Positions 1 to 39,215 of a stretch of 39,215 nt of DNA are shown here, piece after piece (position 1 is the first letter of the stretch; each line of letters begins with the position of its first letter). The position numbers were made by a program, and so were the translations under genes. Source of the stretch: Treponema sp. (GTDB lineage: Bacteria > Spirochaetota > Spirochaetia > Treponematales > Breznakiellaceae); the NCBI GenBank assembly GCA_031279205.1, contig JAITIX010000060.1, positions 1 through 39,215 on the forward strand, in the 5' to 3' direction. Below the pieces are notes generated by a model that saw only the letters and a program-made list of their open reading frames with translations, was not told the DNA's origin and made no database searches.

Positions 1-126
1 GTTCGGTAAATGGTTACGGAAGTTCGGTAAATGGTTACGGAAGTTCGGTAAATGGTTACGGAAGTTCGGTAAATGGTTACGGAAGTTCGGTAAATGGTTA
101 CGGAAGTTCGGTAAATGGCTATAGAA
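1..126. repeat. Tandem array, six 21-bp units (gttcggtaaatggttacggaa), truncated by window edge
   Basis: Units start at 1,22,43,64,85,106; the last is diverged (gttcggtaaatggctatagaa). + frame 3 encodes (SVNGYGS)n and stops at TAA 177-179. Confidence 0.95.
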
Positions 127-208
127 GTTCAGAGGCGTTTTGCGTCATTATTGGGGGGAAGTTTTATCTATATCTCTAATAGAGGGGAAAAACCCAAAGG
201 AGTAAAGA

Positions 209-19647: not shown

Positions 19648-20208
19648 ATGCCCGATTTGACCAAAGAAGAATCCAACGCATTGGACGAGTATTGGACAAA
19701 AGACACACCTAAGATTGACGCTGGCAAGTCCTGTTTTGTTAGACGGCGGCTGGAGGCGTATGTAGTGGAAGGAGACAAGTTCTCTTGCGCGGAGTCGCTC
19801 GCTTTCGGCGCGGAGTCATTCGCTTTCGGCGCGGAGTCGCTCGCCGCCGGCGCGGGGTCGCTCGCTTTCGGCGCGGGGTCGCTCGCTTTCGGCGCGGAGT
19901 CATTCGCCGCCGGCGCGGAGTCGCTCGCTTTCGGCGCGGAGTCATTCGCCGCCGGCGCGGGGTCGCTCGCCGCCGGCGCGGGGTCATTCGCCGCCGGCGC
20001 GGAGTCGCTCGCCGCCGGCGCGGAGTCATTCGCCGCCGGCGCGGGGTCGCTCGCTTTCGGCGCGGAGTCGCTGGCATCTGGGAATAAATCGTTCATTTTC
20101 CAGTTTCCCTTATCTAGGCTGGAAAAAATATATCGGTATAGGAGATTAAAATGTCTGATAATGTACCTTCAGGGGACGCAGCATTTGGCGTGTTCTTCGA
20201 GAACATAG
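19648..20208 (+). CDS. Small conserved hypothetical (antitoxin-like N-terminus) whose C-terminus is replaced by a repeat-encoded (AESLAFG/AAG)n tail
   Basis: SD 'gaggag' before ATG; MPDLTKEESNALDEYWTKDTPKIDAGKSCFVRRR then continuous 7-aa repeats. Confidence 0.5.
   Translation: MPDLTKEESNALDEYWTKDTPKIDAGKSCFVRRRLEAYVVEGDKFSCAESLAFGAESFAFGAESLAAGAGSLAFGAGSLAFGAESFAAGAESLAFGAESFAAGAGSLAAGAGSFAAGAESLAAGAESFAAGAGSLAFGAESLASGNKSFIFQFPLSRLEKIYRYRRLKCLIMYLQGTQHLACSSRT
19786..20085. repeat. 21-bp tandem array, copy 1 (~14 units)
   Basis: gcggagtcgctcgctttcggc / gcggagtcattcgccgccggc variants; minus strand encodes (SAPKASD/SAPAAND)n. Confidence 0.95.
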
Positions 20209-20819
20209 TCAATTATGTTAACCAAAAGACCAGTGGAACTCCTCCCGCGTGGAGCCACATTCCCCAGGCGGAAAGCGATAAACTGAAAGACGCAAAGAAC
20301 GCCTGGATCGCGGCTTATGAGCAGACGAAAGTTCCCCACACCCCGGTGCAGACCGCGGAAAAGAACCGTGTCCGTAAAAGTTCCGAGACTTTCCTTCGGG
20401 AATTCATCAATCGCTTCCTCCGCTACGCCCCGGTAAGCAATGAGGATCGGGATAATATGGGCATTCACAACAAGAAAGACAGACGCAGTTCTGTAACGGT
20501 TCCCACCACGAGTCCGCAGCTTACCGTTGACACCGGCACTCGTTGCCGCCTCATCATCTACTACAAAGATGAAAAAAGTACCCGCCGGGGCAAGCCTGCG
20601 GGGGTTCACGGCATTGAGGTGCGCTGGGCTATTCTTGACCATCTGCCTGAAAGCATCAAGGAACTGACTAATTCCGCCTTTGACACTAACCCACCCCTGA
20701 CGCTGGAGTTTGACGAGCAGGATCGGGGCAAGCGGGTCTATATGTCGGGTTGCTGGGAAATCGAGCGGGAAGGGGAGAAAGGGCCGCCCGGGGCGATTGT
20801 GGAGGCAGTGATTCCATAG
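20151..20819 (+). CDS. Conserved hypothetical protein (paralog of 209-898)
   Basis: SD 'aggag' before ATG; WSHIPQAESDKL, PHTPVQTAEKNRVR, FINRFLRYAPVSNEDRDNMGIH, RGKRVYMSGCWE. Confidence 0.8.
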   Translation: MSDNVPSGDAAFGVFFENIVNYVNQKTSGTPPAWSHIPQAESDKLKDAKNAWIAAYEQTKVPHTPVQTAEKNRVRKSSETFLREFINRFLRYAPVSNEDRDNMGIHNKKDRRSSVTVPTTSPQLTVDTGTRCRLIIYYKDEKSTRRGKPAGVHGIEVRWAILDHLPESIKELTNSAFDTNPPLTLEFDEQDRGKRVYMSGCWEIEREGEKGPPGAIVEAVIP

Positions 20820-30118: not shown

Positions 30119-30357
30119 TTAGGCATGGAGTTGCTGAGGATTAGGGCGTACCGTGAACCTTATCAATGCGGTTCGGGGGTAGTATGGCCGTGCCATGAGC
30201 GACACGGTGGTGCTGCTCGTTTTAAGCGCCGTTAAACCTGCCCAACGTTCCGGCATTCCCGGCAGGATGAGGCCGCCATCGAGCTTCACCGTGGCTCTGG
30301 TCATGCAGGCGGCTTCGTCTGTGGCTATATAGCGCACTAGATAGCTAACCCCGCGGG
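30119..30357 (-). repeat. Conserved ~260-bp module, copy A (inverted relative to copy B at 34991-35236)
   Basis: Manual alignment with reverse complement of 34991-35240: ~25 differences over ~262 bp; carries an 87-codon open frame MIRFWKGTPRG...QQLHA. Confidence 0.9.
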
Positions 30358-30760
30358 GTGTACCTTTCCAGAAACGAATCACTCAGCGCCGGAAGTGAGC
30401 AACTCAGCGCCGGCGGCGAATCACTCCGCGCCAAATGCCAGCAACTCAGCGCCGGCGGCGAATCACTCAGCGCCAAATGCCAGCAACTCCGCGCCAAAAG
30501 TGAGCAACTCCGCGCCGGAAGTGAGCAACTCAGCGCCAAATGCCAGCAACTCCGCGCCGGCGGCGAATCACTCCGCGCCAAATGCCAGCGACTCAGCGCC
30601 GGCGGCGAATCACTCCGCGCCAAAAGTGAGCAACTCAGCGCCGGCGGCGAATCACTCCGCGCCGGAAGTGAGCAACTCAGCGCCGGCGGTGAATCACTCA
30701 GCGCCGGAAGTGAGCAACTCAGCGCCAAATGCCAGCGACTCAGCGCCGGCGGCGGGCGAG
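30358..30760. repeat. 21-bp tandem array, copy 2 (~18 units)
   Basis: actcagcgccggcggcgaatc / actccgcgccaaatgccagca variants; + strand encodes (SAPAANH/SAPNASN)n and (ESLSAGG/QQLRAKS)n in different frames. Confidence 0.95.
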
Positions 30761-33702: not shown

Positions 33703-34074
33703 CTATCGTTTCGGCAATGTCATTGAACGCATAACAAAAGCCGCGCGTCTGGCGTAGAGGATGCCGCCGTTTTGCAAGATTTTGGAAACAAACGCCGGAT
33801 AATCGGCGGCGGCTGCGGGCTGTAATTCATTCAGGATGCCTATTTCCAAACCGGAAGCGTCCACGCCCGCAGCTTGCGCCGCCTCGCGTACCTTAAAGGC
33901 GGAAATGTTACGCGAAATATAAGCCTCCGACTTTGACAGCCGTGCGGCAATTTCCTTTTGCGTAAGTCCGCTTTTACACATTTTATAACTGCGGCTTTCC
34001 CTTTCCGGCGCGGTTAAATCGCTCAGCTGGAGATTTTTAACAAGCTGTATTGTGAGCTTATCGCCAGTTATCAC
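33703..34074 (-). CDS. ParB-like protein, C-terminal (KorB-type HTH) part, separate frame
   Basis: LTIQLVKNLQLSDLTAPERE...SGLTQKEIAARLSKSEAYISRNISAFKV; GTG start overlaps upstream stop (GTGA). Confidence 0.65.
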   Translation of the reverse strand: MITGDKLTIQLVKNLQLSDLTAPERESRSYKMCKSGLTQKEIAARLSKSEAYISRNISAFKVREAAQAAGVDASGLEIGILNELQPAAAADYPAFVSKILQNGGILYARRAAFVMRSMTLPKR

Positions 34075-34325
34075 AATGGAGTCAATGTTTTAAAATTTTC
34101 GCCCGCATCAACCAGCGATTGAAGCACGTGGCAGCGGCAGTGACCATCGACAAGCTCATATTTTTCTATGCCGTCCGCGTCCGGCTCCAGCGCCTTGACT
34201 AAAACAGGCTCAAGCTGGCCATTTTTCTTTATGTTTTTTACAAGCTCCGCAATATCCGAATAATCGATACTCACGTTGCCTGTATCAACGATTTGTGATA
34301 GCGCAATTTTCCTCAAACCAGTCAT
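34071..34325 (-). CDS. ParB/Srx N-terminal nuclease-like domain protein (split from HTH part)
   Basis: LRKIALSQIVDTGNVSIDYSDIAELVKNIKKNGQLEPVLVK...YELVDGHCRCHVLQSL; frame stays open upstream through array 3. Confidence 0.7.
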   Translation of the reverse strand: MTGLRKIALSQIVDTGNVSIDYSDIAELVKNIKKNGQLEPVLVKALEPDADGIEKYELVDGHCRCHVLQSLVDAGENFKTLTPL

Positions 34326-34399
34326 GACTATACCACTATCCGCAACATACTGGTAAGTGCGGGTATCACAAGTCCCAAGTGCCGCAGCTCCAAAAAAGA

Positions 34400-34990
34400 T
34401 CGGCGCTGAGTCGCTGGCATTCGGCGCGGAGTGATTCGCCGCCGGCGCGGAGTCGCTCACTTTCGGCGCTGAGTGATTCACTTTCGGCGCGGAGCAACTC
34501 ACTTTCGGCGCGGAGTCGCTCACTTTCGGCGCGGAGCAACTCGCCGGCGGCGCGGAGTCGCTCACTTTCGGCGCGGAGTGATTCGTTTCTGGCGCTGAGT
34601 CGCTCGCTTTCGGCGTGGAGTGATTCGCCGCCGGCGCGGAGTCGCTCGCTTTCGGCGCTGAGTGATTCACTTTCGGCGCGGAGCAACTCACTTTCGGCGC
34701 GGAGTCGCTGTCATTCGGCGCGGAGTGATTCACTTTCGGCGCTGAGTCGCTCACTTTCGGCGCGGAGTGATTCGCCGCCGGCGCGGAGTCGCTCGCTTTC
34801 GGCGCGGAGTCGCTGGCATTCGGCGCGGAGCAACTCGCCGCCGGCGCGGAGTCGCTGGCATTCGGCGCGGAGTGATTCGCCGCCGGCGCTGAGTCGCTCG
34901 CTTTCGGCGCGGAGTGATTCGCCGCCGGCGCTGAGTCGCTCACTTTCGGCGCGGAGTCGCTGGCATTTGGCGCGGAGTGATTCGTTTCTG
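34400..34990. repeat. 21-bp tandem array, copy 3 (~28 units)
   Basis: Same unit family as the 19.8 and 30.4 kb arrays; minus strand (SAPKASD/SAPAANH)n in frame with ParB. Confidence 0.95.
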
Positions 34991-35236
34991 GAAAGGTACA
35001 CTCCGCGTGGTTGGCTATCTAGTGCGCTACATAGCCACAGACGAAGTCGCCTGCATGACCAGAACCACGGTGAAGCTCGACGGTGGCCTCATCCTGCCGG
35101 GAATGCCGGAACGCTTGGCAGGTTTAACGGCGCTTAAAACCAGCGGCGCCACCGTACCGCTCATGGCGCGACCATACTGCCCCCAAACCGCATTGACAAA
35201 GTTTACTGTGCGCCCTAATCGTCAGCAACTCCATGC
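34991..35236 (+). repeat. Conserved ~260-bp module, copy B
   Basis: ~90% identical by eye to reverse complement of copy A; 87-codon frame MIRFWKGTLRV...QQLHA. Confidence 0.9.
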
Positions 35237-35488
35237 CTAAAGAATGGTTCCTCACCCGCCCCGACCCAGACGGGAAGCCTTTGGCGAGTTGCTCCAAGCC
35301 GACGCCAGTCCTTACGATTGGCTGGGAACTGGCGAGACGTATCATGGGAGAGCTTGAGGTCGATATGCATCCCACGCATAGTCCATAGGCAAAAGGGCGT
35401 ATCCAGCGACTTTGGGAGACCCTGCAAAGTCGTCTGCCGATAGAGAGTTCAAGCGGCATGGTATCACGACTATTGTGGCCGCTAATAA

Positions 35489-39065: not shown

Positions 39066-39215
39066 TCACCCAGCCTGCTCATTGAAACCAACACCACGTT
39101 CCTCATTGAAACCAACACCACGTTCCTCGTTGAAACCGGACCCCAGTTCCTCATTGAAACCAACACCACGTTCCTCGTTGAAACCGGACCCCAGTTCCTC
39201 ATTGAAACCAACACC
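39066..39215 (-). CDS. C-terminal tail of an octapeptide-repeat protein (GVGFNEER/GSGFNEEL)n, partial
   Basis: Minus strand from the edge: GVGFNEELGSGFNEERGVGFNEELGSGFNEERGVGFNEERGVGFNEQAG*, stop at 39066-39068. Confidence 0.6.
   Translation of the reverse strand, partial: GVGFNEELGSGFNEERGVGFNEELGSGFNEERGVGFNEERGVGFNEQAG
39077..39215. repeat. 24-bp tandem array (cctcattgaaaccaacaccacgtt / cctcgttgaaaccggaccccagtt), runs off window
   Basis: Units at 39077, 39101, 39125, 39149, 39173, 39197. Confidence 0.95.

Follow-up and report, generated by a model that had tools for sequence, protein, structure and literature searches.

A tandem array placed directly upstream of a single gene is the arrangement of the Type III toxin-antitoxin loci ToxIN, CptIN and TenpIN. 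Private palindromic repeats tied to one gene, with dispersed genome-specific copies, are the mark of the repetitive extragenic palindromic (REP) sequences and bacterial interspersed mosaic elements (BIME) that go with REP-associated tyrosine transposase (RAYT) genes. RAYT and REP coevolve. Non-coding tandem arrays, some of them dispersed, are known as prokaryotic satellites, and a density of more than 4 per Mb was called exceptional in the survey by Subirana and Messeguer in 2019 (PMC6749651). The locus described here lies in a stretch of 39,215 nucleotides from Treponema sp. (contig JAITIX010000060.1 of assembly GCA_031279205.1), and this whole stretch is called the window. It forms a module, in which an upstream tandem array of palindromic 21-bp units (array 1) is followed by a gene for a predicted helical-bundle and fibronectin-III (FnIII) protein of about 220 aa. 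Compared with the Type III loci, the module has palindromic units of 21 bp, an FnIII protein, no RNA strand signature and, in treponemes, promoter-like sites after the array. Unlike REP/BIME with RAYT, it has no transposase match, its strictly tandem 21-bp array lies only 5' of the gene, about 20 different repeats occur per genome, and repeat and protein are mostly uncoupled. Unlike prokaryotic satellites, its arrays are tied to a single gene family and a single period. The density in the window's own genome, 73 tandem arrays in 583 kb, compares with the more than 4 per Mb of the survey under differing detection criteria. No description of such a gene-array module was found in searches of open-access papers with a few term combinations.

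The gene at 20151-20819 has array 1 as its upstream element. The same arrangement, a 21-bp array within 400 bp upstream, was seen in 90 of the 97 family copies with enough flanking sequence; a downstream array was found in 4 of the 97. The upstream array was present in 38 of 41 treponeme copies, 3 of 3 in Oscillospiraceae, 35 of 38 in Bacteroidota and 14 of 15 in planctomycetes. Within the window's own genome, a 21-bp array stands 300 bp or less upstream of 19 of 20 family genes, against 16 of 382 other open reading frames (ORFs; Fisher p=5e-22). The family copies of this genome with upstream sequence are preceded by a 21-bp array whose end lies 27-257 bp from the start codon, and the unit in each is the copy's own or that of a near relative. 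When periods of 15-30 were allowed, the best array had a period of 21 in 51 of 51 cases. Arrays of the module consist of about 4-24 units; array 1 has a Tandem Repeats Finder score of 341-412, and its orthologous end was seen in the congener G004.

Most of the genomes are fragmented metagenome-assembled genomes (MAGs), some contigs may be misbinned, and the relatives were sampled, not exhausted. The array-gene linkage is not only a MAG artefact, because the complete, single-contig genome G032 carries two full family copies with arrays, one of them a clear 21-bp array. No comparable non-coding 21-bp array was found in 260 kb of other G032 sequence, where one 21-bp stretch is presumably a coiled-coil coding sequence. 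Similarly, the sole 21-bp array in 140 kb sampled of the planctomycete G168 precedes a family gene. Direct testing is feasible since G032 has two intact copies.

The gene at 20151 belongs to a multigene family. It has 21 matches in its own genome, where the family copies number about 20, and 16, 30 and 21 matches in the congeners G001, G003 and G004. A scan of named genomes placed the family in four phyla, in MAGs of Treponema, Oscillospiraceae, Prevotellaceae, Tannerella, other Bacteroidales and Planctomycetaceae, and eight such genomes had 6-15 matches each. The family was present in 3 of 199 planctomycete genomes and in 39 of 200 genomes of a Prevotellaceae-like family; we believe the MAG sets that carry it to come mostly from termite guts. 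The family genes are under purifying selection, with a ratio of nonsynonymous to synonymous substitution (dN/dS) of 0.06-0.37 in eight pairs. AlphaFold2 predicted four helices and a C-terminal beta-sandwich for the 222-aa protein (confidence pLDDT 94.5, pTM 0.65). In Foldseek, the C-terminal part gave many FnIII matches (best E 1.4e-5), viral FnIII-like proteins among them, and on this model it is assigned to an FnIII beta-sandwich domain. The N-terminal helical domain alone (model pLDDT 89) gave no Foldseek match below E=1. Pfam, PHROG and NCBIfam searches of the protein returned nothing meaningful, and Pfam gave no FnIII match at the sequence level. PADLOC gave just weak matches to unrelated models, and a known defence family was rejected. 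The family was not found in phages, plasmids or viral contigs, and a phage or plasmid origin was likewise rejected.

Unit statistics were taken over 97 gene-linked arrays with 865 units. The longest perfect inverted arm per unit had a mean of 4.35 bp, compared with 3.49 in shuffled units (z 9.3) and likewise 3.49 in 21-mers drawn at random from the genome. No difference in folding energy was found between the sense and antisense orientations of the units (p=0.62), and RNA hairpins were rejected on these equal energies. Open frames were also equal on the two strands of the 97 arrays (1.78 versus 1.77). Because folding energies match on both strands and open frames are equal, the dyad looks like a property of the DNA rather than of an RNA or a peptide. 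The units of array 1 and of the window's two orphan arrays (2 and 3) contain multi-base alternatives at fixed positions (CGCTC/CATTC/GATTC; TTTC/CGCC), which assort independently and give higher-order periods of 42-147 bp.

The array sequence turns over faster than the flanking DNA, and the unit is almost always private to its copy. For protein pairs at 30-70% identity, unit similarity was 9.7-9.9 matches of 21, against 9.7 in shuffled units, which is chance. Above 70% identity the mean was 11.95/21, because a few pairs keep their unit. Four Oscillospiraceae paralogs with 90-95% protein identity have units at chance similarity, and their protein differences are scattered. The loci L127 and L155 are 83% identical upstream, 81% in the gene and 90% downstream, whereas their arrays are unalignable. 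In L164/L172, L069/L071 and L220/L221, too, alignment is possible for the available flanks but not for the arrays; over such pairs with conserved flanks, the flanks are 72-90% identical on both sides. Paralog similarity often ends near the array on one side and near the stop codon on the other. Sequence common to the window gene and the G004 gene that corresponds to it (73% identical) is limited to 20067-20815, from the array end to the gene end. The 21-bp repeat of array 1 occurs in five arrays of its own genome and in 0 of 58 other genomes, four of the same genus included.

Private units also occur away from the genes. In 583 kb sampled of the window's own genome, 41 arrays of 21 bp were found, 20 gene-linked and 21 orphan. 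For about 14 of the 21 orphan arrays, a gene-linked unit agrees at 17-21 of 21 positions (null 12-16). The array 1 unit is matched by arrays 2 and 3 of the window and by the C16 and C76 arrays, and no trace of a family gene was seen in the flanks of these four. A large share of the many tandem arrays in this MAG is accounted for by the module. The features of the window are collected in Table 1.

Table 1 Positions of the module, its neighbours and related arrays in the window.
Feature	Positions	Strand	Remarks
Array 1, 13-14 units of 21 bp	19787..20080 (degenerate units to about 20110)	+	Upstream element of the gene at 20151
Gene of 222-aa helical-bundle + FnIII protein (predicted), member of array-linked multigene family	20151..20819	+	No Pfam, NCBIfam or PHROG match
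Chimeric ORF	19648..20208	+	Antitoxin remnant, 14 heptads, out-of-frame end within next gene; judged accidental
5' remnant of putative RHH-type (BrnA-like) antitoxin gene, residues 1-47	19648..19788	+	Homologs, alignment; sub-threshold RHH_1 on the homolog part missing here
Array of 21-bp units (GTTCGGTAAATGGTTACGGAA) of second module copy, at contig end	1..130	+	
Second family gene, 229 aa	209..898	+	78 bp after its array
Orphan array 2, unit family of array 1	30381..30754	-	
Orphan array 3, unit family of array 1	34400..34990	+	

Promoter positions were compared between groups. The near-consensus sigma70 sites of treponemes are found between array and gene, with a mean score of 10.2 versus 8.8 in shuffled sequence, and at p<=0.05 they were found in 33% of loci between array and gene versus 5% upstream of the array. 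In Bacteroidota, TTTG/TAnnTTTG promoters lie upstream of the array, with 14 sites in 36 loci versus 0.19 expected from shuffles and 3 on the opposite strand; none was found between array and gene in 45 loci. Array and promoter thus do not keep a conserved order, and this speaks against a single RNA role.

We favour, with middling confidence, the reading that the array is a period-locked cis element of the DNA, read by its period and symmetry and rapidly renewed. We infer that it acts as double-stranded DNA. A dyad spacing of 21 bp corresponds to two helical turns, which would place all dyads on one side of the helix. Dyads aligned in this way could offer a dimeric DNA-binding factor a surface to bind, or could matter through DNA shape near the promoter of the gene. 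Reading by period and dyad would leave the unit sequence free to change; the units may be renewed by slippage or by exchange between arrays, and the orphan arrays may be copies thrown off within the same genome. Several results weigh against this reading. No binding factor was identified, and the 222-aa protein has no recognised DNA-binding domain, its helical fold being unmatched in Foldseek. The second G032 copy has a degenerate array with a period of about 22. Stem variants of GU type are slightly above those of AC type (301 versus 234), the one sign towards RNA. In a few close pairs the unit is retained (20/21 and 18/21), as a cognate model would also predict, and the Bacteroidota promoters precede the array, so the array there may be transcribed. 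A functional array would be a cis element whose period and symmetry, not its sequence, are read. A dedicated process might also hold the arrays at 21 bp and palindromic while replacing their sequence, giving each copy a DNA tag of its own, which would also be placed elsewhere in the genome as orphans. Such an identity or addressing system is a doubtful proposal in our judgement, and the open-access literature searched held no description of one. If the arrays are made by an enzyme, it would be one that builds 21-bp palindromic arrays. To our knowledge, no bacterial system combines a near-fixed period, copy-private sequence and change faster than that of the flanks.

Other readings of the array were also considered. 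In a Type III-like system, transcription of the array would yield a repeat RNA able to bind the adjacent protein and inhibit it. This would agree with the tandem array immediately 5' of a gene of roughly 200 aa, an arrangement also seen in ToxIN (PMC8860590), and with the Bacteroidota promoters upstream of the array. The treponeme promoter-like sites, however, sit between array and gene, the units have no RNA strand asymmetry, and proteins 95% identical have unrelated units. The protein itself also disagrees, since its fold is FnIII plus helices with no ToxN among the Foldseek matches listed and no related family match, and the PADLOC matches are to unrelated models. Such a system is quite improbable here. 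Specific binding of each protein to its own array, for autoregulation or as a filament, with specificity set by few residues, would suit palindromic units, which fit a dimer, and the common units of some close pairs. It is opposed by the chance similarity of units among the four Oscillospiraceae paralogs, with their scattered differences, and by the lack of protein-unit coupling at 30-70% identity, with only a slight rise above 70%. We regard this cognate binding as improbable. The coding, RNA-antitoxin and cognate-binding readings all fit poorly.

Selfish palindromic repeats mobilised by a linked gene, with the orphan arrays as non-autonomous copies, would be a REP/RAYT-like explanation. One gene per private palindromic repeat is in its favour, as are the dispersed genome-specific copies, about two-thirds of the orphans (14/21) matching a gene-linked unit. 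The obligate linkage described for RAYT genes and REPs (PMC2817692) also counts for it. The gene, however, has no transposase family match or fold, and no Y1/HUH transposase was found with Pfam, NCBIfam, PHROG or Foldseek. Arrays lie on one side of the gene only, and protein and repeat do not co-vary over most of the identity range. This explanation therefore seems unlikely to hold, with a probability we put as low as that of cognate binding.

A preliminary description of the window had put forward a plausible gene with a good Shine-Dalgarno sequence that runs directly into array 1 and gains about 14 heptapeptides, its N-terminus antitoxin-like and its normal C-terminus lost. This anatomy was confirmed. 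The ORF has an ATG start with GAGGAG upstream and encodes 186 aa on the + strand, residues 1-47 being followed in frame by 14 units of 21 bp (AESLAFG, AESFAAG, AGSLAFG etc.), and it ends 58 nt inside the next gene. Full-length homologs of residues 1-47 were found in 36 of 98 related genomes as complete proteins of 76-88 aa. In the alignment they continue past the residue-47 point with SADYLxxKAAATHxTPxEIIGxLVREK, a stretch absent from the window ORF exactly where array 1 starts. A sub-threshold RHH_1 match (E 0.0025) covers homolog residues 39-72, the region corresponding to the part absent in the window ORF. Judged from these alignments, the first 47 residues are the N-terminus of a ribbon-helix-helix (RHH)-type, BrnA-like antitoxin. 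The two RHH helices with which the homologs go on have been replaced by array 1, and no RHH domain was recognised in the ORF. Many homologs have a small ORF overlapping on the upstream side, which by its pattern we take to be a BrnT-like toxin, although it has no Pfam match. No toxin ORF was found in the upstream frames of the window. The locus thus resembles BrnA-like antitoxins in the N-terminal 47 residues, but lacks the RHH helices and the partner toxin gene.

The further suggestion, that a mobile or expanding repeat invaded the antitoxin gene and now encodes a new C-terminal tail, was not supported. As this view expects, the fusion keeps the frame and falls exactly at residue 47. Yet array 1 is open in all three of its sense frames and in two of the antisense ones, and the synonymous fraction of changes is 0.41 in the ORF frame versus 0.50 in an antisense frame. 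A coding array was therefore rejected, the frames being equally open on both strands and the synonymous fraction in the ORF frame unremarkable. Other family copies have the array at the same position without an antitoxin, and a remnant at the array was seen in no other family copy tested. The displaced C-terminus was found neither downstream of array 1 (20060-20160) nor after the gene 20151-20819, and simple insertion was rejected on this ground. We consider the invasion hardly credible. The fusion looks accidental, a side effect of adjacency: all sense frames are open, coding signal is lacking in the units, there is no toxin gene, and a displaced C-terminus was not found close by. On the favoured reading, the module would adjoin a truncated antitoxin gene by chance, with the open frame running through. 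A misleading gene call is thereby corrected. The ORF also has a Pfam YadA_head match (E 2e-6); a YadA head repeat adhesin was rejected, as the match reflects just the S/A-x-A-x-G spacing of an array without coding signal. Elsewhere in the genome the antitoxin has just one further match, a separate decayed copy on contig C85 (L245, C85:381-575, - strand), close to an apparent 21-bp array where the contig starts.

Further observations concern the orphan arrays and contig ends. Arrays 2 and 3 have a common inverted flank of 252 bp, 90% identical (30128-30380 and 34990-35241), which is a trace of duplication or recombination at the arrays. We read this flank as the C-terminal end of a short-chain dehydrogenase (KLDGGLILPGMPE). 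A ParB_N-like ORF at 34071-34400 on the - strand (E 5e-4, below the cut-off) was read into array 3. The C16 orphan array (L045, about 4730 and 5013) has the direct repeat GAGGTTTATT on both sides, possibly a target duplication. Both contig ends of the window (1-130 and 39078-39215) lie in tandem arrays, of 21 and 24 bp, and several other contigs of the same genome also end within arrays. The assembly therefore probably breaks at arrays.

Arrays of other periods were also seen. No common neighbouring gene family was found for the 22-24-bp arrays of the window's own genome. At L062 5460-5546, 22-bp repeats with a DnaA-box-like TATGCACA lie between two ORFs that we take, from their N-termini, to be dnaN and dnaA, and this is a probable origin region. 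In G168, an unrelated family of about 130 aa (MSYKxFKGKW...; L266, L267, L268 and L269) has 22-bp arrays 43-134 bp after the stop codon in 4 of 4 copies, with a different unit in each copy. In L263/L267 and L269, the 22-bp array is in turn followed by another conserved gene, of about 285 aa. This partly parallel case suggests that the array-gene principle may be wider.
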